This document shows, in pieces, positions 1,651 to 24,232 of a DNA stretch of 64,000 bases. The first letter of the stretch is position 1. Each line of letters starts with the position of its first letter. The DNA lies in contig NZ_BBWW01000001.1 in the NCBI RefSeq assembly GCF_001485215.1, positions 1,674,001 through 1,738,000 of the forward strand, read 5' to 3'. The DNA comes from Leptolyngbya sp. NIES-2104 (GTDB lineage Bacteria > Cyanobacteriota > Cyanobacteriia > Leptolyngbyales > Leptolyngbyaceae). The notes beneath the pieces are model-generated. The model searched no databases. It was not told the DNA's origin and worked only from the letters and a program-made list of their open reading frames with translations. Both the position numbers and the translations under genes were made by a program.

Positions 1651-4600
1651 ATGCCCCGTCGCCAAGACCTCCACAAGATTCTGTTAATCGGTTCCGGTCC
1701 GATTGTGATCGGGCAAGCGTGTGAGTTCGATTATTCTGGAACTCAAGCCTGTAAAGCCCTGCGAGATGAAGGATTTGAAGTGATTTTGGTCAATTCTAAT
1801 CCAGCGACCATCATGACTGATCCAGAGACTGCCGATCGCACTTACATCGAGCCACTCACTCCCGAACTGGTCGAACAAATCATTATCAAAGAGCGTCCTG
1901 ATGCGTTGTTGCCGACGATGGGCGGTCAGACAGCGCTAAATTTGGCGGTGTCGCTGGCGAAAAGTGGCGTTTTAGAAAAGTACAACGTTGAACTGATCGG
2001 GGCGAAGCTGCCCGCGATCGAAATGGCGGAAGATCGCAAGCTGTTTAAAGAAGCGATGGAGCGAATCGGGGTCGGGGTCTGTCCGTCGGGATTGGCGGAA
2101 ACGCTCGAAGAAGCGAAAGCGATCGGGCAACAGATCGGCTCGTATCCGTTAATTATTCGTCCGGCATTTACGATGGGCGGCTCTGGTGGTGGGATCGCTT
2201 ACAATCAGCAGGAATTTGAGGAAATTGCTCAATCGGGATTAGATGCGAGTCCGGTTTCGCAGATTTTGATCGAGAAGTCGCTGCTCGGTTGGAAAGAGTA
2301 CGAACTTGAAGTCATGCGCGATTTGGCAGATAACGTCGTGATTATTTGTTCGATCGAGAACTTAGATCCGATGGGGATTCACACGGGCGATTCGATCACG
2401 GTCGCGCCTGCTCAAACTCTGACCGATAAGGAATATCAGCGGCTTCGAGATGCGTCGATTAAGATCATTCGCGAAATCGGCGTGGAAACGGGTGGATCGA
2501 ACATTCAGTTTGCGGTGAATCCGGTCACGGGTGAAGTGGTCGTGATTGAAATGAATCCGCGTGTGTCTCGGAGTTCGGCTCTGGCTTCTAAAGCGACCGG
2601 ATTCCCGATCGCGAAAATGGCGGCAAAACTCGCAGTCGGTTACTCGCTTGATGAAATTCCCAACGATATTACGAAGAAGACTCCGGCGAGTTTTGAACCG
2701 ACGATCGATTATGTCGTGACGAAAATTCCTCGATTCGCTTTTGAGAAATTTCCAGGTTCTCAGCCGTATCTCACCACTCAGATGAAATCGGTCGGGGAAG
2801 CGATGGCGATCGGGCGAACCTTTCAAGAGTCGTTTCAAAAAGCATTGCGATCGCTCGAAACCGGACGGGCGGGATGGGGTTGCGATAAGCAGGAAGTGTT
2901 GCCGAGTTTAGAGCAAATTCGAGCAGGATTGAGAACGCCGAATCCTGAGCGAATCTTTACCGTTCGACACGCGATGTTGATGGGAATGCCCGTTGAAGAG
3001 ATTTTTGAACTGACGAATATCGATCTTTGGTTTCTCGATAAGTTAGCAGATTTGCTCGAAACGGAGAAAGCACTAAAGCGATCGACGCTTAAAGATTTGA
3101 CCGCTGACAAGCTGTTAGCGATTAAGAAAAAGGGATTTAGCGATCGTCAAATTGCTTTTGCAACAAAATCGACTGAAGATGAGGTTCGCACTCATCGAAA
3201 ATCGCTCAATATCATTCCGGTCTACAAAACGGTTGATACTTGCGCCGCAGAATTTGAAGCATTCACGCCGTATTACTATTCGACGTACGAAGAAGAGAAT
3301 GAAATCCTGCCTTCGGACAAGCGCAAAGTCATGATTCTCGGCGGCGGACCCAATCGGATTGGACAAGGAATTGAGTTCGATTACTGTTGCTGTCATGCGT
3401 CGTTTGCCTTACGCGAAGATGGCTATGAAACGATCATGGTCAACTCGAATCCTGAAACCGTTTCGACCGATTACGATACCAGCGATCGACTTTATTTCGA
3501 GCCGCTAACGAAAGAAGATGTGCTCAACATTATCGAAGCAGAACAGCCCGAAGGTGTAATCATTCAATTCGGAGGACAAACGCCGCTAAAACTTGCAGTT
3601 CCGCTCGATCAGTTTCTCAAACAAGGCACCGTTCCAACCAAGATTTGGGGAACTTCACCAGACTCGATCGATACCGCAGAAGATCGCGAACGGTTTGAAA
3701 AAATCCTGCGTGAGTTGAACATCCAACAACCTGCAAACGGACTTGCCCGCGATTATGCGGACGCGAAAAAGGTCGCCCGCCAAATCGGATATCCGGTGGT
3801 GGTGCGTCCGAGCTATGTCTTAGGCGGACGAGCGATGGAAATCGTTTACTCGGATCAAGAACTCGAACGCTATATGGTGTATGCGGTTCAGGTTGAGCCG
3901 GATCATCCGATTTTGATCGATCGATTCCTCGAAAACGCGATCGAAGTCGATGTCGATGCGATCGCAGACCAAACCGGAAATGTCGTGATCGGCGGCATCA
4001 TGGAACACATCGAACAAGCAGGAATCCACTCTGGCGACTCGGCTTGCTCGATCCCAACGGTGACATTGAGTGCTGAAATTGTCGATCAAATTCGCACTTG
4101 GACGGTACAACTGGCGAAGGCTCTAAAAGTCGTGGGCTTGATGAATATTCAATTCGCAATCCAAGGCGATCAGGTATACATCATCGAAGCGAATCCACGA
4201 GCATCCCGGACGGTTCCATTTGTCTCCAAAGCGATCGGGGTTCCTCTAGCGAAAATGGCTTCTCGAATCATGTCCGGGAAAACCTTAGTAGATCTCGGTT
4301 TTACTCAAGAAGTGATTCCCAAACATATCTCTGTGAAAGAAGCGGTTCTCCCGTTTGAGAAATTCCCTGGAACCGATACGATTCTTGGACCTGAAATGCG
4401 ATCGACCGGAGAAGTGATGGGGATCGATTCCGATTTCGGTAAGTCTTATGCGAAAGCGGAATTGGCAGCGAGTCAACGACTCCCCCGTCAAGGAACCGTT
4501 TTTGTCTCGATGAACGATCGCGAAAAATTTGCCGTTGTTCCAGCGGTTAAAGAACTGATGGAACTCGGCTTTAAGGTGGTCGCGACTTCTGGAACTCGTA

Positions 4601-4887
4601 AAGCCTTAAAAGAACACGGTCTTGATGTGGAACTCGTTCTGAAACTGCACGAAGGAAGACCGCATGTGCTGGATTCGATTAAAAACGAGCAGATTCAGTT
4701 GATTATTAATACGCCCGCTGGACAGGAGGCACACGAAGACGATCGCTTAATTCGTCGAACAGCATTGACGTACAAGATTCCGATGATTACCACGATCGCG
4801 GGTGCAAAGGCGACCGCTGCGGCGATTCGATCTTTGCAGGCTGAAACCCTTACAGTCACGGCACTGCAAGACTACATTTCTCATTAG
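1651..4887 (+). CDS. carB: Carbamoyl-phosphate synthase large subunit
   Basis: The 1078 residues match the normal length for CarB, the ammonia-using synthetase subunit that makes carbamoyl phosphate from bicarbonate, ammonia and two ATP for arginine and pyrimidine synthesis. The two ATP-grasp halves are visible as an internal duplication. [17 protein letters not shown] opens the first half and [16 protein letters not shown] opens the second, each followed by the conserved VNSNP(A/E)T segment. A C-terminal MGS-like allosteric domain follows, with [10 protein letters not shown] and INTPAG. The glutaminase partner carA is not nearby, as is common in cyanobacteria. A hairpin terminator lies just downstream. 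Confidence 0.98.
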
Positions 4888-4898
4888 CACCGTCAGGG

Positions 4899-4921
4899 GC
4901 GGTACTCACATCGAGTACCGC
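4899..4921 (+). terminator. Hairpin terminator after carB
   Basis: A perfect 9-bp stem, GCGGTACTC paired with GAGTACCGC, has a 5-base loop and lies 11 bases after the carB stop. Only a weak pyrimidine-rich tail (TCTTCT) follows, so termination may be incomplete. Confidence 0.6.
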
Positions 4922-5469
4922 TCTTCTACCACTTGATAGATGACAAACTTCGATCGAAACCTGTATCCCTATGAAACGATTTACGGAAACGATGGCACTA
5001 ATTTAACCCTTCCGACTCTTAACTCGGCTTGCTCTAATTATTAAAGCAATGTAAAGATCTCTCATAAACATGCTCGTTGTCACTCCGCCCTTTGAATTTT
5101 GCTGAAACCTGTTATTCTGTCTCACAGAAAACAGCAAGAGAAAATATTCTTGATAACCTACTCTCTATAGATTAAGAATCAAACGATCGCTTATCCTGAA
5201 TCATGTGCATTTCTTACTCAGAATCTTTACAAACCTTAATCGAATGATGGATAATCCTTAATACCATCGCTTAATGCTGCTGTGAAAGTGAATGTAAGAA
5301 GCAGCACCCCGATCCACCGCTCGTTCAGTAAGTTGCACCTGCCTGAATCCTTGAGATCTACCTTTGAAGTAAGTTGTACTGCCGGACACTTGAGAGCAAT
5401 CCTTTCTCCTCATCGATTCCTGCTATCTCTTATCGTTTCTTCCTACCTCTCACACCGACTAACGCCGCT
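4922..5469 (+). promoter_or_regulatory. Long leader/intergenic region upstream of the sigma factor gene
   Basis: About 550 bp without a convincing gene. It is AT-rich at 4980-5280 with several TATTCT/TATAGA-like hexamers, none of which can be assigned as the promoter by eye. The last part holds an imperfect direct repeat. One unit starts AGTAAGTTGCACCTGCC at 5327 and the other starts AGTAAGTTGTACTGCC at 5368, each followed by CTTGAGA. The spacing of 41 bp is close to four helical turns, which could suit paired binding of a regulator. A 6-bp inverted repeat GCTGCT/AGCAGC spans about 5276-5305. Confidence 0.4.
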
Positions 5470-6426
5470 ATGAAAACCGCTCAAACTCCTACTGACTCCG
5501 TTCGGGCTTACCTGCGTGAAATTGGTCGTGTGCCTCTGTTGACGCACGAACAAGAAGTGCTCTACGGCAAACAAGTTCAGCGCTTCGCGATCGTTAATTC
5601 GATCAAAGCCTCGCTCACCGAAAAACTCGGAACTGCTCCAGATGATGCCACGTGGGCAAAAGCGGCTGAACTCTCAGAAACCGAACTGCGGCAAATTCTA
5701 GCGGAAGGCGAACTCGCAAAACGTCGCATGGTCGAAGCGAATTTGCGTTTAGTCGTTTCGGTTGCCAAAAAATATACGAAACGTAACGTTGATCTCATGG
5801 ACTTGATCCAGGAAGGCACGATCGGGATGCAGCGGGGAGTCGAAAAGTTTGATCCCACGAAAGGCTATCGATTTTCGACTTATGCGTACTGGTGGATTCG
5901 GCAAGCGATCACAAGAGCGATCGCAGAAAAAGGTCGGACGATTCGCCTCCCGATTCACATTACTGAGAAGCTAAACAAAATTAAGAAAGCGCAGCGAAGT
6001 TTATCTCAGCAGTTAGGACGGGCGGCAACGCTGTCTGAATTAGCGACTGAATTAGAATTACCCGTGGCGCAGATCCGGGATTACCTCGAACGTGCACGAG
6101 TCCCGCTGTCCTTAGATTTGCGAGTCGGTGATAATCAAGATACTGAGTTAGGAGAACTGCTCGAAGATCCCGGACTGTCACCAGAGGACTTTACGACTCA
6201 GACTTCGCTGAAGCTGGATCTCGATGCGCTGATGGCAGATTTGACGCAGCAGCAGCGGGAAGTTCTGATTTTGCGGTTTGGTTTGGATGATGGCAAGGCG
6301 TTGACGTTGGCGAAAATTGGCGATCGACTGAATATCAGTCGTGAACGGGTGAGACAAATCGAACGCGAAGCCCTAACGAAATTGCGGAAGCGTAAAGGTG
6401 ATATGGGTGAATATCTTGCAAGTTAA
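5470..6426 (+). CDS. Group 2 RNA polymerase sigma-70 factor (SigB/SigD-like)
   Basis: The 318-residue protein has no long region 1.1, as in the non-essential group 2 sigma factors that cyanobacteria use for stress, light and nutrient responses. Region 1.2 reads [21 protein letters not shown]. Region 2 contains [19 protein letters not shown] and the melting motif [15 protein letters not shown]. Region 4.2 has the helix-turn-helix [19 protein letters not shown]. The start is the ATG at 5470; the frame is open further upstream but those residues are not sigma-like. The assignment to the SigB or SigD lineage is uncertain without a tree. The long leader suggests regulated expression. Confidence 0.92.
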
Positions 6427-18318: not shown

Positions 18319-18795
18319 TTAGCAACACTTCACCCAACTCGAACACACTTCACCAGATTTGCCGTAGTAAAATTCTTTTTTCCAAATCGGTGCCCGATGC
18401 TTCAGAGTGTCGATCGCATATTGACACGCCTCAAACGCTTCTTTGCGATGCGGACAACCTACCGCAATCAAGACACTCATTTCGCCAATTTCTAAGCGTC
18501 CGACTCGATGATGAATCACCACATGAGTCACATCGCTCCAAGTCTGCCGAATCTCTGCTGCAATCTGTCTGAATACCTGAATCGCCATCGGTTCATACGC
18601 TTGATATTCCAGATGTAGCACCGAAAACCCTTCGCTATTGTTGCGAACCATGCCGCTCATCAGCACGATCGCACCATTCGCCGCATCATCCGCCTGCTGG
18701 TAAACTTCATCGATCAATAAAGGCGCGATCGTAATGACAAAGTGATCATTCGGATGTGCAGAAACGGATTGAGAACCTAACGAAGAAGCCAACAT
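18319..18795 (-). CDS. moaE: Molybdopterin synthase catalytic subunit
   Basis: MoaE transfers sulfur from the MoaD thiocarboxylate to cyclic pyranopterin monophosphate in molybdenum cofactor synthesis. The 158-residue protein shows GAIVLMSGMVRNNSEG, LEYQAYEPMA, HRVGRLEIGEMSVLIAVGCPHRKEAF and the active-site lysine region LKHRAPIWKKE. Its length is normal for the family. The moaA gene lies 4.5 kb away at 23246, so the pathway genes are dispersed. The C-terminus GEVCSSWVKCC is unusually Cys-rich. Confidence 0.95.
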   Translation of the reverse strand: MLASSLGSQSVSAHPNDHFVITIAPLLIDEVYQQADDAANGAIVLMSGMVRNNSEGFSVLHLEYQAYEPMAIQVFRQIAAEIRQTWSDVTHVVIHHRVGRLEIGEMSVLIAVGCPHRKEAFEACQYAIDTLKHRAPIWKKEFYYGKSGEVCSSWVKCC

Positions 18796-18826
18796 AGAAT
18801 TTCACGCTCACAGTGCACTTCTTATG

Positions 18827-19627
18827 TTAGCGGTTTGCTTGAATTGAATTTAAGGTTCTCAGAACTTCTGCGGTGGTCATTCCGGGTTTAATTTGCGGGA
18901 GGTAGAGCATTTGAATCAAAGCGCGATCGAGATCTGAAAAGCGCGTCGTATCTGTCCAAGGCTGATAAAACATACTATCTGCGTAACGGTAAGAGTCGCG
19001 CATCAAACCGAGCGCCTGAGTCAGTTCTTCACGAATTAAATGCGATCGTTCTTTCTGAGTGACTCCCGTTGTGGTAACCAAAACATTGGCACGATTAATG
19101 GTGTCTTGATTGTTCCAACGTGTCACGAAAAATCCAAAATTTACTGGAATGTAAGCAGGTTCGATTCGGCGGAATTGAGCTTCTGGAACAAAGTGAATCG
19201 TCACATTCGGATTGCTATTCACGAGTTGCATCCGAATTGCACCTCCGGTTAATCCATTTACTTCGCTAATTACCGTTCGCAGTGTTCTTAAGTCTTCGCT
19301 TGTCGGCTTGCCGAAAGCCTGAATCCGGACTTCTCCGCTCCATTTGCGAATTCTGGGTGCGCCTTGTTGGTTGTACTCTGACCCCATTGCAATTTCCATG
19401 AAATAGTCGATCTGAGCTTGGGAAAAAGCAGAATTAGAACGAATTGTTTTTGATTGAAGCTGTTTCGGTTGGGCAACGGGAGCATTCGAGGAAATAGATC
19501 CGCCGCCGAAAGATTCCATTGATCGAGCAGACAGCGATCGACCAATTCCTGCTGTCAAAATCCCTAAAGAGAGTGCGCCCGTCAGCGTCAAAATTCGACT
19601 CATTCGCTCTGCAACCTTTGGCTTCAT
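18827..19627 (-). CDS. Secreted DUF2927-family protein
   Basis: A 266-residue protein with an N-terminal hydrophobic segment (LTLTGALSLGILTAGIG) that looks like a signal peptide or anchor, then a low-complexity Ser/Gln linker. The domain from about residue 65 has IRKWSGEVRIQAFG and HLIREELTQALGLMRDS. The latter resembles a zinc-peptidase helix with HxxxEExTQ in place of HExxH, as in the DUF2927 family. Its function is unknown. It is oriented with moaE 32 bp downstream and could be cotranscribed with it. Confidence 0.7.
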   Translation of the reverse strand: MKPKVAERMSRILTLTGALSLGILTAGIGRSLSARSMESFGGGSISSNAPVAQPKQLQSKTIRSNSAFSQAQIDYFMEIAMGSEYNQQGAPRIRKWSGEVRIQAFGKPTSEDLRTLRTVISEVNGLTGGAIRMQLVNSNPNVTIHFVPEAQFRRIEPAYIPVNFGFFVTRWNNQDTINRANVLVTTTGVTQKERSHLIREELTQALGLMRDSYRYADSMFYQPWTDTTRFSDLDRALIQMLYLPQIKPGMTTAEVLRTLNSIQANR

Positions 19628-19932
19628 GATTCTTCCCCCAGGTAGACTTTAGATGCCTCCTAGAGTTCCCCGGTGCTTTTTGAACTCACCTTCCCTAAGT
19701 TCGGGCAATAATTCTCTATATCGGGATAATCTATCGAAGATTCTTGCAACATTGATTAATTCTTCATCAGAAATTCCGATATAAAATGCAAGATTTGCAA
19801 AATTGATTCTCTATCTTTGGTCGTACCTCTCAAAATCTGACTTTGATTAATCTAATGAACTATCGATCGAGCGATTTCCCACTCAATCTGCACCTCACTT
19901 CGTTTCACTAGAGATGAGAGTAGTCAAATTAT
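19628..19932 (+). promoter_or_regulatory. Upstream region of psaB, without psaA
   Basis: These 305 bp contain no psaA and no other coding frame. They are AT-rich, with TATAAAAT at about 19791-19798 as a possible -10 element and a TTGCAA hexamer roughly 45 bp upstream. The region separates psaB from the divergent DUF2927 gene, so this psaB must have its own promoter rather than being read from a psaA promoter as in the standard psaAB operon. Confidence 0.4.
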
Positions 19933-22149
19933 ATGGCGACTAAATTTCCAAAATTTAGCCAGGATCTCGCGCAAGATCCCACAACGCGACGGCTTTGGTA
20001 TGGGATTGCCACCGCTCACGACTTTGAAAGTCATGACGGCATGACCGAGGAGAAGCTTTATCAAAAGATTTTTGCGACTCACTTTGGTCATGTAGCAATC
20101 ATTTTCTTATGGACTTCTAGCCTGTTGTTCCACGTTGCATGGCAGGGCAATTTTCCGCAGTGGATTAAAGATCCGCTGCATATTCGTCCCATTGCTCATG
20201 CGATCTGGGACCCTCAATTCGGTAAACCTGCGATCGAAGCTTATACGCAGGGTGGTGTGAACTATCCCGTGAACATTGCCTATTCAGGTGTGTATCACTG
20301 GTGGTATACGATCGGCATGAGAACGAATGCTGATTTGTATCAAGGCGCAGTCTTTTTGCTCTTGATTTCAGCATTGTTCTTATTTGCAGGTTGGCTGCAT
20401 TTGCAACCGAAATTCCGTCCGAGTTTGGCTTGGTTTAAGAATGCGGAATCTCGACTGAATCACCACTTAGCAGGACTGTTCGGGGTGAGTTCTCTCGCTT
20501 GGGCGGGTCACTTGATTCACGTTGCAATTCCTGAATCTCGTGGTCAGCACGTGGGCTGGGAGAACTTCTTAACGACACTTCCACACCCTGCGGGATTGAA
20601 GCCCTTCTTTAGTGGAGATTGGGCAGCTTATGCTCAAAATCCTGATACGGCGAATCACATTTTTGGAACGGCTGAAGGTTCGGGTAGTGCAATTCTGACC
20701 TTCTTGGGAGGATTCCACCCGCAAACTGAATCGCTGTGGTTGACTGACATGGCGCATCACCATTTAGCGATCGCAGTTATTTTCATTGTTGCGGGTCACA
20801 TGTACCGCACTAACTTTGGCATCGGTCACAGTATCAAAGACATTCTTAATGCAAAGAGCTTCTTTGGTAATCGGATCGGTGGTCAAGGCAACTTGTCGCA
20901 TACCGGACTGTATGACACCTACAACAATTCGCTGCACTTCCAGTTAGGGATTCACTTAGCTGCCTTGGGTACGGCGCTTTCTGTTGTAGCTCAACACATG
21001 TACGCGATGCCGCCGTATGCGTTTATGTCAAAGGACTTCACGACTCAGGCATCGTTGTACACTCACCATCAGTATCTTGCCGGATTCTTTATGGTGGGGG
21101 CGTTTGCTCACGCAGCGATTTTCTGGGTGAGAGACTATGACCCAGACAACAATGCGGACAATGTGCTAGCTCGATTGTTAGGACACAAGGAAGCGATCAT
21201 TTCTCACCTCAGTTGGGTTTCGCTGTTCCTCGGTTTCCATACGCTCGGCTTGTATGTTCACAATGATGTACAAGTAGCGTTTGGTGCCCCAGAAAAGCAA
21301 ATTCTGATTGAGCCTGTGTTTGCTCAGTTTGTGCAAGCTTCACATGGTAAAGCGCTCTATGGATTTAATACGCTGCTATCGAATCCTGATAGTTTGGCAT
21401 CGAATCCGGGTGCGGCTTATTTACCCGGTTGGCTTGATGCGATTAACAGCGGCACGAATTCATTGTTCCTTACGATCGGTCCGGGTGATTTCTTAGTGCA
21501 CCATGCGATCGCACTTGGTTTACACGTCACGACGCTGATTTGCATTAAAGGTGCGTTAGATGCGCGTGGTAGTAAGTTAATGCCGGATAAAAAAGACTTC
21601 GGTTTTAACTTCCCGTGTGATGGTCCGGGACGAGGCGGCACTTGCCAAATCGCGTCTTGGGAACAGTCTTTCTATCTGGCGATTTTCTGGATGTTGAATA
21701 CGATCGCTTGGGCGACTTTTTACTGGCACTGGAAACATCTGGCGATCTGGTCGGGTAATGTGGCTCAGTTTAATGAAAGTTCGACTTACCTGATGGGTTG
21801 GCTGCGAGATTATCTCTGGCAGTATTCAGCACCGTTGATCAACGGATACAACGTTTATGGAACAAGCAATCTCTCAGTTTGGGCGTGGATGTTCTTGTTT
21901 GGTCACTTAGTGTGGGCGACAGGATTCATGTTCTTGATTAGCTGGCGGGGATATTGGCAAGAGCTAATTGAAACGCTGGTTTGGGCACATGAACGCACCC
22001 CGTTAGCAAACTTGATTCGGTTCAAAGATAAACCTGTGGCGTTGTCGATCGTACAAGGTTGGTTAGTGGGTTTAATTCACTTTACGGTGGGTTACATTCT
22101 GACTTATGCAGCCTTCTTAATTGCTGCGACGACAGGTAAGTTTGCTTAA
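19933..22149 (+). CDS. psaB: Photosystem I P700 apoprotein A2 (PsaB), solitary divergent copy
   Basis: PsaB is one of the two reaction-centre cores that bind P700, the antenna chlorophylls and the FX cluster. This 738-residue copy has the standard start [20 protein letters not shown], eleven hydrophobic helices, and the FX ligands in [12 protein letters not shown] (Cys562 and Cys571). The P700 region [20 protein letters not shown] is also present. It differs from common PsaB at conserved places: [11 protein letters not shown] for TSGNLFHVAWQ, and [13 protein letters not shown] for CDISAWDAFYLA, with one extra residue. No psaA is adjacent. It may be a second, alternative PsaB, or the main psaB of a genome with a split operon; divergence favours the former. 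A PsaX-like peptide follows after 2 bases. Confidence 0.95.
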
Positions 22150-22151
22150 CG

Positions 22152-22244
22152 ATGCTTGATTGGGCATTTCGTGCGATCGTCACTCTAAGTTTGCTCGGTT
22201 TGTTGCTTGTTGCTGCACTGTACTACGGTGCAATTAATCCTTAA
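22152..22244 (+). CDS. Small single-helix peptide, PsaX-like photosystem I subunit candidate
   Basis: A 30-codon frame starts two bases after the psaB stop and is followed at once by a terminator. The peptide begins MLDWAFRAIVT and ends VAALYYGAINP. It has one hydrophobic helix preceded by FR and followed by YY-x-x-I. PsaX, a small peripheral PSI subunit that binds a chlorophyll near PsaB, has the same layout (FRT..., a hydrophobic helix, VAAYYF-x-I). The resemblance is by eye over about 25 residues, so the identity is tentative. The position and tight spacing strongly suggest co-expression with this psaB. Confidence 0.6.
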   Translation: MLDWAFRAIVTLSLLGLLLVAALYYGAINP

Positions 22245-22249
22245 ACGGT

Positions 22250-22281
22250 AAAAGGTGGAGTCAGTTGGCTTCACCTTTTTT
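22250..22281 (+). terminator. Rho-independent terminator of the psaB unit
   Basis: AAAAGGTG at 22250-22257 pairs with CACCTTTT at 22272-22279 across a 14-base loop, and the right arm runs into TTTTTT. It lies 6 bases after the small peptide stop, so psaB and the peptide form one transcript. Confidence 0.75.
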
Positions 22282-22411
22282 CGATCGCTGTGGATGATCG
22301 ATCGTGCGATTATCAACAAATGGGCAATTTTTGGAAAATTATTCGGTTTTCTAAATCGGCGTGATGGGTTGATCGATTTATCCGACAACGACGATCGATT
22401 TACCCGATAAC

Positions 22412-22462
22412 GTAGAGACGCGAACACCAAAGGTGCAGCGAAGCTCCTAATCGCGTCTCTAC
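22412..22462. repeat. Inverted repeat GTAGAGACGCGA, dispersed cyanobacterial type
   Basis: GTAGAGACGCGA at 22412-22423 is perfectly matched by TCGCGTCTCTAC at 22451-22462, with a 27-base centre. Sequences with GTAGAGACGCG arms are frequent intergenic repeats in cyanobacteria. It sits between the psaB terminator and the end of the glutathione transferase gene, and may act as a terminator for the latter on the minus strand. Confidence 0.6.
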
Positions 22463-22474
22463 AATTTGGAACCA

Positions 22475-23170
22475 TTAATGTTTCACGGTTCCCGCCGATT
22501 GATTGAACAACAATTCTCGCGCTTGATCGGGGCTGATTTGTTCCGCCTTAAATGCGTCCGCCTTCTCGTACGCCCGAATCGTGGCAGGACGCGATCGAAT
22601 CGCCTCAAACCATCGCTTCAAATTCGGAAAATCTTCGAGGTTTTGTCCTTGGCGCTCGTACGGCACAATCCACGGATAACTAGCAATATCGGCGATCGAA
22701 TACTCACCCGCTACAAATTCGCGATCGCTCAATCGCTTATTCAACACCGCATACAATCGCCCCGTTTCATTCACATACCGATCGATCGCGTAAGGAATTT
22801 TCTCAGGTGCATACTGGCTGAAATGATGGTTCTGTCCCGCCATCGGACCTAAACCGCCCATCTGCCAAAACAACCATTGCAAAACTTCAGTGCGCCCCCG
22901 CAAATCAGAAGGGATTAATTGACCTGTTTTTTCAGCGAGATATAGCAAAATTGCGCCTGATTCAAAAACGGAAATCGGTTCACCGTCTGGGGGATCACGA
23001 TCGACGATCGCTGGAATTCGATTATTTGGAGAAATCTTCAAAAAATCCGGCTGAAACTGATCACCCTTTCCAATATTAATCGGCACAAGGTTGTAAGGAA
23101 GTCCAACTTCCTCTAGAAACATCGTAATCTTGTGACCGTTTGGCGTTGTCCAGTAGTAGAGATCGATCAT
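22475..23170 (-). CDS. Glutathione S-transferase (YfcG/Ure2p-like)
   Basis: A 231-residue two-domain glutathione transferase. The thioredoxin-like N-domain starts IDLYYWTTPNGHKITMFLEE; TPNG replaces the classical catalytic Tyr/Ser, as in the YfcG/Ure2p class with disulfide-bond oxidoreductase activity. NRIPAIVD with the cis-Pro and FESGAILLYLAEK, the glutathione gamma-glutamyl site, follow. The all-helical C-domain includes FVAGEYSIADIASYPW. The ATG at 23170 is preferred over 28 upstream residues that are not family-like; GGAG lies just upstream. It is divergent from moaA. Confidence 0.92.
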   Translation of the reverse strand: MIDLYYWTTPNGHKITMFLEEVGLPYNLVPINIGKGDQFQPDFLKISPNNRIPAIVDRDPPDGEPISVFESGAILLYLAEKTGQLIPSDLRGRTEVLQWLFWQMGGLGPMAGQNHHFSQYAPEKIPYAIDRYVNETGRLYAVLNKRLSDREFVAGEYSIADIASYPWIVPYERQGQNLEDFPNLKRWFEAIRSRPATIRAYEKADAFKAEQISPDQARELLFNQSAGTVKH

Positions 23171-23245
23171 AACCACTCCGGTAATCAATGCCTCAATTCT
23201 AGGATCGGGTTTGATGCTGCGGTGTGAATCCGGCAGAATGGATTT

Positions 23246-24232
23246 ATGAATCAAGTGGATTATTTGCGGATTAGTTTAATCGATCGCTGTAATTTCCGGT
23301 GTCAGTACTGTATGCCGGAAGGAAGCGATCTCGAATATGTGTTGCAGCAAAACCTTCTCACGCAGGAAGAATTAACAACGCTGTTGCGAGAAGTGTTTAT
23401 TCCGGTGGGATTTACTCGGTTTCGACTGACCGGAGGCGAACCGCTGATTCGTCCGGGAGTCGTGGAGATTGTCAGAACGATCGCACAATTTCCCGAAACT
23501 CAAGATCTTTCGATGACGACGAATGCGTTTCTGCTCGATTCGATGGCGCAAGATCTTTATGAGGCGGGATTGAGACGGATTAATATCAGCTTGGATTCAT
23601 TAGAGCCGGAAACGTTCGATCGCATTATTGGAAATCGTGGTCGAACGCGCTGGCAACAAGTCTGGAACGGGATTCAAACCGCTTATCGAATTGGATTTAC
23701 TCCGCTTAAATTAAACGTGGTCGTTGTTCCGGGTGTGAATGATCATGAAGTGCTGAATTTAGCGGAATTGAGTGTCGATCGAGAATGGCACGTCCGATTT
23801 ATCGAATTTATGCCGATCGGAAACGATAATCTTTTCAGTGATCAAGGTTGGATTGATTCAGAAACGATTCGTCAACAGATTCGACAACGCTGGGGATTGA
23901 CTGAAGCAAACGTCAAGGGAAATGGTCCCGCTGATGTTTTTAGAATTCCAGGAGCGAAAGGAACATTAGGCTTTATTAGTCAAATGTCAGAATGTTTTTG
24001 CGATCGCTGTAATCGAATGCGCCTTTCTGCGGATGGCTGGTTGCGTCCGTGTTTGCTGAATGAGATTGGACAAATTGATTTGAGATCACAACTGCGATCG
24101 GGTATTTCGACAAAAGAACTCCGCGAACAAGTCAGCGAACTTCTCAACTTAAAGCCTGAGATTAACTATAAACAGCGCGAATCGGGCACCACTGGCAAGT
24201 ATCAGCGAACCATGTCACAGATTGGGGGTTAG
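23246..24232 (+). CDS. moaA: GTP 3',8-cyclase MoaA
   Basis: A radical SAM enzyme that, with MoaC, turns GTP into cyclic pyranopterin monophosphate, the first step of molybdenum cofactor synthesis. In its 328 residues, the SAM [4Fe-4S] motif is [12 protein letters not shown], and the SAM-binding [11 protein letters not shown] follows. The C-terminal cluster has [20 protein letters not shown]. The end [15 protein letters not shown] keeps the C-terminal Gly-Gly needed for activity. It probably shares a control region with the divergent glutathione transferase. Confidence 0.97.

Follow-up and report, generated by a model that had tools for sequence, protein, structure and literature searches.

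A solitary psaB3 gene with an adjoining PsaX-like peptide in Leptolyngbya sp. NIES-2104, a candidate alternative photosystem I core

Introduction

PsaB3 is a class of photosystem I (PSI) core proteins already known in print, all members of which carry a Gln insertion beside FX, and it is the same as the protein named PsaB2 in Nostoc punctiforme (Gisriel et al., 2023, PMC10694217; for N. punctiforme PsaB2, Ekman 2011 and Magnuson 2011, as cited in PMC10694217). According to the passages of that work on PsaB3, the class has been reported from Nostocales, Leptolyngbyales and Oscillatoriales, and within the PSI of C. fritschii PCC 9212 and L. ohadii; published data are read there as indicating constitutive PsaB3 expression, and the role of the protein is described as unresolved (PMC10694217). 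Its function is likewise called unknown in PMC6424891, according to which far-red light raises psaB3 transcript levels approximately 2.5-fold in C. fritschii PCC 9212. The psaB2 gene of Nostoc PCC 7120 is alr5314 (PMC7699953), and passages of PMC4582080 describe changes near FX and phylloquinone in PsaB2, as well as a model that predicts better efficiency without oxygen.

Other PSI variants offer partial parallels. The PsaB2 of FaRLiP also represents a paralogous PsaB swap; however, it comes with psaA2, and its C. fritschii copy has an ordinary FX loop. The PsaX2 of Acaryochloris marina NIES-2412 is a divergent PsaX-type subunit accompanying a variant PsaB, but as portrayed in the relevant passages of PMC13251853 it is associated with chlorophyll d red forms and PsaB loops, with no FX change reported, and it resembles the peptide studied here by description only. 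The portions of PMC10694217 and PMC6424891 on which we draw make no mention of psaX, and no paper combining PsaX, Nostoc and psaB2 was met in the literature searched.

In this work, we analysed a stretch of 64,000 nucleotides from Leptolyngbya sp. NIES-2104 (hereafter, the window), in which a reading made from the sequence alone had pointed to a divergent, solitary psaB and a dedicated small subunit as parts of an alternative PSI core. As in the PsaB3 of PMC10694217, the window gene is an extra psaB outside the psaA-psaB operon, with the Gln insertion and with changes around FX and phylloquinone; unlike the PsaB3 portrayed in those passages, where no such companion is mentioned, it is linked to a PsaX-like peptide.

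Gene content and organization of the locus

The window sits on a 5.7-Mb contig of a 6.39-Mb genome assembled in 5 contigs. Three PsaA/PsaB genes were found in this genome, namely a psaA-psaB pair approximately 3 Mb away and, additional to it, the window gene, which is a second psaB because the normal psaA-psaB operon is present elsewhere. The genome count proposed by the sequence-only reading thus locates the main gene at the distant pair, and the case in which the window would hold the only psaB of the genome does not apply. The window protein matched PF00223 with 1253 bits and belongs to PsaB by the NCBIfam equivalog (1485 bits, cut-off 922); with the NCBIfam psaA model it gave 645 bits, under the cut-off of 863. 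Its identity to the PsaB1 of the same genome is 88% overall. The features of the locus are the following (window coordinates):

19628..19932, + strand: upstream region of 305 bp, probably the gene's own promoter region
19933..22149, + strand: psaB3, intact, encoding an alternative PSI core subunit PsaB of 738 aa (ATG at 19933, TAA at 22149)
21541..21666, + strand: codons 537-578 of psaB3, with class-specific places; Cys537, FX loop with Cys ligands 562 and 571, Gln572, Glu577 and the inserted Gln578
22060..22062, + strand: codon 710, Trp, against Arg in 57 of 59 ordinary PsaB rows (X and a gap in the other two)
22152..22244, + strand: PsaX-like one-helix peptide of 30 aa with C-terminus YYGAINP, 2 bp past the psaB3 stop
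22250..22279, + strand: hairpin with a T run, by its fold energy a probable terminator for psaB3 and the peptide

The psaB3 gene is solitary, and its neighbours on both sides lie on the opposite strand: upstream a DUF2927 gene whose start codon at 19627 leaves the 305-bp gap, and downstream of the peptide a GST gene. This gene order bears out the earlier description of a psaB standing alone behind its own 305-bp region. No + strand sigma-70-like site was listed for this region (19628-19932), and its conservation was seen by eye, between the window and locus L004 only. At the other end, the peptide had been proposed to close the unit, and this agrees with a same-strand ORF that begins 2 bp past the psaB stop, followed by the hairpin, whose energy of -20.6 kcal/mol (22245-22285) corresponds to a z of -7.2 and was equalled by 0 of 200 shuffles. 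The hairpin at 22250-22279 was not among the sites listed by the consensus terminator scan, and Rfam gave no match within 19500-22600.

As a side observation, psaB3 is placed between moaE and moaA (window 18319-24232), with the DUF2927 and GST genes in between. Genes for DUF2927, GST, MoaA, an XPB-like helicase and KARI are likewise near psaB3 in locus L004; when seven neighbour genes were queried in seven other loci, none was found there.

Class-specific residues of PsaB3

From 130 collected PsaB proteins (at least 715 aa), 85 full-length sequences were used for the tree and the residue counts, the other 45 being left out; the alignment comprises 25 rows with the insertion, 59 without it, and 1 taken as the far-red form. 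The 80 named psaB loci are the best 80 matches of a scan and not an even sample. Because the PsaB3 class was defined by its FX loop, the specificity of the Gln578 insertion is given by construction, which does not hold for all of the other four places.

Five places (window numbering) told the 25 PsaB3 rows and the 59 ordinary PsaB rows apart without overlap. PsaB3 has Cys at 537, where ordinary PsaB has Leu; Gln at 572, against Asp (one Glu); Glu, as in the window, or Gln at 577, against Asp (one Ser); the inserted Gln578, found in 25/25 PsaB3 rows and 0/59 others; and Trp at 710, with the ordinary residues listed above. Three of these places belong to or adjoin the FX loop; 537 precedes the first FX Cys by 25 residues, and 710 is near the C-terminus; we take both 537 and 710 to be close to the quinone. 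In the PsaA of this genome, the second FX Cys is immediately followed by Gln, so that PsaB3 is PsaA-like at 572.

The one-residue insertion noticed just after the FX loop in the earlier reading is therefore real, namely Gln578, and the FX ligand region is kept as stated there, with Cys562 and Cys571 present. With its insertion and its changes next to FX and phylloquinone (Gln572, Glu577, Cys537, Trp710), the window gene is, by its residues, of the PsaB3 type set out in the passages of PMC10694217 and PMC4582080. The same reading had also noted SL in place of GN at a normally invariant position. The letters are correct, own PsaB1 having GN and the window protein SL; the supposed invariance fails, since SL is present not only in 25/25 PsaB3 rows but also in at least 21 of the 59 ordinary ones, and the pair was dropped as a PsaB3 marker.

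Phylogenetic analysis of PsaB3

When the FX columns were removed, the window protein grouped with the PsaB1 of its own lineage (SH-aLRT 98), and well-supported branches forced 6 changes of the PsaB3 label over the tree. Forcing all 25 PsaB3 into one clade under the same conditions cost 314 log units (AU p 7.7e-7). A constraint that joined the window clade to the Nostocales PsaB3 cost 34 log units and was not rejected (AU p 0.22), and neither was the equivalent placement of Spirirestis (p 0.16); it was rejected for L011 (p 0.0002), L033 (p 0.008) and L040 (p 0.014). In the tree of the FX segment, all rows nearest to the window protein were PsaB3. The PsaB tree suggested by the sequence-only reading thus gave a divided answer: the FX segment falls with PsaB3, and the rest of the protein differs from Nostocales PsaB3 in grouping with its own lineage's PsaB1 instead, with the AU test allowing the Nostocales grouping. 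A separate origin of the backbone of the window PsaB3 is therefore favoured by the tree and not required by the AU test.

Regional trees required 7 changes of the PsaB3 label for 1-290, 5 for 291-385, 7 for 386-498, 2 for 499-600 and 6 for 601-738. The number remained at 2 for the region 530-600 without the four marker columns, and was 9 for 601-738 without place 710. Support in short regions was low, and the supported branches of 499-600 force one change only. Because PsaB3 does not form one clade without the FX columns, while the FX segment needs only two changes, these results suggest recombination between psaB copies that spared the FX segment, a feature that may be new; repeated convergence appears less likely. 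In C. fritschii PCC 6912, third-position identity between psaB3 and psaB1 (L209 vs L021) was 0.93 for codons 31-60 and 0.90 for codons 181-210, and 0.28 for codons 511-540.

In the window, codons 575-605 of psaB3 (21655-21747) show 21/24 third-position identity to own psaB1, elsewhere about 0.4-0.7 (p 8e-4 for this one segment against an assumed 0.55, uncorrected for the 24 segments compared). This tract, beside the FX insertion, might be a recent conversion tract, of which it gives no more than a hint.

PsaA and PsaB gene sets in related genomes

Seven genomes, MAGs that may be incomplete among them, were examined for their PsaA/PsaB gene sets by way of the named loci. Microcoleus sp. FACHB-1515 has a single psaA and a single psaB; this psaB encodes a PsaB3 and lies within the psaA operon (L033: psaA at 1715-3976, PsaB3 at 4001-6220). 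In a Spirirestis MAG (L009, L023), one psaA and two PsaB3 were found and no PsaB1, with PsaB3 behind psaA in L009. In a Thermosynechococcaceae MAG (L011), the sole psaB is PsaB3, next to a psaA with an interrupted frame, and no PsaB1 was found. In C. fritschii PCC 6912, psaA-psaB is accompanied by another psaA-psaB pair, presumably the far-red one, and by a solitary psaB3.

Because PsaB3 is the sole psaB beside psaA in Microcoleus FACHB-1515 and the sole PsaB class in the two MAGs, these gene sets point to a PsaA/PsaB3 heterodimer as the simple reading. The same genomes speak against the PsaB-type homodimer that the sequence-only reading had entertained, while its broader proposal of an alternative PSI core accords with an additional psaB that keeps the FX Cys ligands. 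Its suggestion that this core is made under special conditions is set against the constitutive expression that PMC10694217 reads from published data. Tandem pairs of ordinary psaB were also seen in L026, L034 and L064 (Rhizonema MAGs and Nostocales HT-58-2), located behind psaA in L026 and L034.

Distribution of the peptide and its linkage to psaB3

A scan of 83 loci for the C-terminal motif found the peptide in 15 of 24 PsaB3 loci and in 0 of 59 others, and a looser motif raised the PsaB3 loci with the peptide to 16 of 24. Its position varies. In the window and in Leptolyngbya sp. Prado105 the peptide gene lies downstream of psaB3; 13 loci bearing Nostocales-type names have it upstream in the same orientation, and in strain CCP2 it is upstream in divergent orientation.

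For genome-wide counts, a profile (A1) was built from 11 peptide members, and PsaB3 was searched by a DNA signature tolerating up to 2 mismatches, all matches being exact. The signature was present in only 9 of 386 genomes of a phylum sample, this genome included, and therefore the counts were moved to the family of genome G024 and to the order of the window genome. Among 210 genomes of that family, A1 matched in 54, the signature was present in 54, and both in 47 (odds ratio 143, p 1.1e-31); within one genus of 51 genomes, the peptide occurred in 16 and PsaB3 in 14, each of the latter also having the peptide (p 9e-11). Shared ancestry among the genomes makes these p-values too small. The peptide lay just upstream, on the same strand, at 35 of the 55 psaB3 signatures of the 210 genomes and was not adjacent at the other 20; seven of the 54 PsaB3 genomes lacked the peptide, and seven of the 54 peptide genomes lacked the signature. 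Twelve unlinked or PsaB3-less cases were inspected, and in ten of them the motif ORF or profile match stood alone or among unrelated genes.

In L178, L180, L181 and L187, the motif scan gave no ORF of at least 40 aa although A1 matched. The peptide was also seen alone among other genes at L184, L185, L186, L189 and L179, in Nostocales-family genomes, and G461, G468, G471, G473, G489 and G503 had more than one A1 match, the extra ones being mostly weaker and several near contig ends.

In the order of the window genome (42 genomes), PsaB3 was found in 11, including 8/8 of its own genus, and the peptide in 5, all within these 11 (p 5e-4). Three of the five are own-genus genomes with the peptide directly behind psaB3; in another it lies approximately 130 bases behind, and in the last on another contig. 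The remaining 5/8 own-genus genomes have psaB3 without the peptide, so that the latter comes and goes; in three of them, sequence alignable to the window hairpin occurs soon after the psaB3 stop. In the window genome, A1 gave one clear match, the window peptide (2.6e-10), the next being at 0.13. The peptide family is thus one that accompanies PsaB3 and is not obligatory.

Relationship of the peptide to PsaX

The window peptide and that of G571 differ by a pS of 0.45 and a pN of 0.075 over 27 codons, and the 861 pairs of 42 peptide sequences have a mean pS of 0.59 and pN of 0.28, a codon-level pattern that shows purifying selection on the peptide.

With the Pfam PsaX model (PF08078), the window peptide gave 15.5 bits, below the gathering cut-off of 25. 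Among the 11 members, 2 matched PsaX at E<=1 (best 6e-4), and nine other Pfam families matched one member each. Profile A1 retrieved 13 rows at E<=10 from PDB sequences, of which the top five have PsaX sequences (best E 0.0097), including one labelled Phosphorylase that matches PsaX at 1.3e-16; the PsaX chain of Anabaena PSI structures was retrieved with an ordinary PsaX query (E 3.9e-11) and not with A1. Profile-profile comparison with ordinary PsaX indicated homology (89% probability, E 2.3e-6 over 28 columns). The peptide resembles PsaX in its single helix, a conserved Arg before the helix and an alignable core; it differs in scoring below the Pfam cut-off, in ending with YYGxINP and in its linkage to psaB3, ordinary PsaX being a separate gene. 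Judged from these comparisons, it belongs to a family that is PsaX-like, separate from standard PsaX and associated with PsaB3, and this too may be new. The linked PsaX-like subunit anticipated by the sequence-only reading thus finds support in the co-occurrence with PsaB3, the PDB matches and the profile-profile result.

Ordinary PsaX (PF08078) was detected in 202 of the 210 genomes of the G024 family, with one match each, and in 25 of the 42 of the own order, where it occurred in 2 of 11 PsaB3 genomes and 23 of 31 others, a difference driven by one genus. None of the 8 own-genus genomes, the window genome included, had an ordinary PsaX over the Pfam model, so the peptide could also serve the ordinary PSI here.

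Discussion

The gene set, the residue patch, the conservation and linkage of the peptide, and the relatives having PsaB3 as their only PsaB are direct results. We consider it likely that PsaB3 replaces ordinary PsaB in a PsaA/PsaB3 PSI with retuned FX and A1 and with a PsaX-type peptide as subunit. PsaB3 would take the place of ordinary PsaB in the heterodimer assembled in this organism, retaining the FX cysteines in an altered patch (Asp572 to Gln, Asp577 to Glu, inserted Gln578, Leu537 to Cys and Arg710 to Trp), which probably alters the energetics of both FX and the B-branch quinone and probably lessens the difference between the two sides of FX. Peptide and psaB3 would share one transcript, and the probable binding site of the peptide is the outer face of PsaB3.

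More tentatively, and with somewhat more doubt than confidence, PsaB3 and the YYGxINP peptide may form a two-part PSI swap module, consisting of an FX-retuned core and its own PsaX paralog, in which the FX segment would be kept apart or passed between psaB genes by recombination, the rest would follow the local psaB, and PsaB3 would serve as sole PsaB in a few species. A candidate partner subunit, together with the cultured Microcoleus FACHB-1515, whose only psaB is PsaB3, would make the role of PsaB3 directly testable: this strain would provide a pure PsaA/PsaB3 photosystem I with no paralog interfering, and the peptide is a small gene removable on its own. Such work bears on how both sides of the FX site are tuned against oxygen.

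Among other explanations, it seems rather unlikely that psaB3 is an ordinary spare psaB copy with no special role. The high identity to own PsaB1 (88%), a function of PsaB3 never shown, and the constitutive expression reported in other strains in the passages of PMC10694217 would suit such a copy, but the five differences that run through the whole class, around FX and close to the C-terminus, persist across distant lineages, and the history of the FX segment is nearly a single one. We find it quite improbable that the gene has its role in nitrogen fixation or in low-oxygen cells, the original idea for heterocysts: PsaB3 was first noted in the heterocysts of N. punctiforme and the published model favours efficiency without oxygen (passages of PMC4582080), yet nifH above the cut-off was present in 4/11 PsaB3 and 9/31 other genomes of the own order (p 0.71), and none exceeded it in the window genome. 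The nitrogen-fixation link is thus not supported; nifH bears on nitrogen fixation and not on low oxygen. As for the 30-aa ORF, it is very short, has no Pfam match above cut-off and is missing behind psaB3 in 5/8 own-genus genomes, as a chance ORF might be; that it is no gene is nevertheless very unlikely given its pS and pN against G571 (0.45 and 0.075) and the recurrence of its C-terminal motif in many genomes, at varied places relative to psaB3 and also unlinked to it.

A PsaB3-type homodimeric PSI would agree with the position of psaB3 apart from psaA and with Gln572, which makes one place PsaA-like. It is hardly credible, however, in view of the below-cut-off match to the psaA model, of PsaB3 being the partner behind psaA in L009, L033 and L011, and of the reports, as cited in PMC10694217, that put PsaB3 in ordinary PSI particles. 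Identification of the window gene with the far-red PsaB of FaRLiP, for which an extra psaB paralog might speak, has a negligible probability: FaRLiP comes with a second psaA, and the single psaA of this genome excludes this identity unless a psaA2-psaB2 pair is absent from the assembly. Furthermore, the C. fritschii PsaB located beside the second psaA has an ordinary FX loop and sits on a long separate branch.
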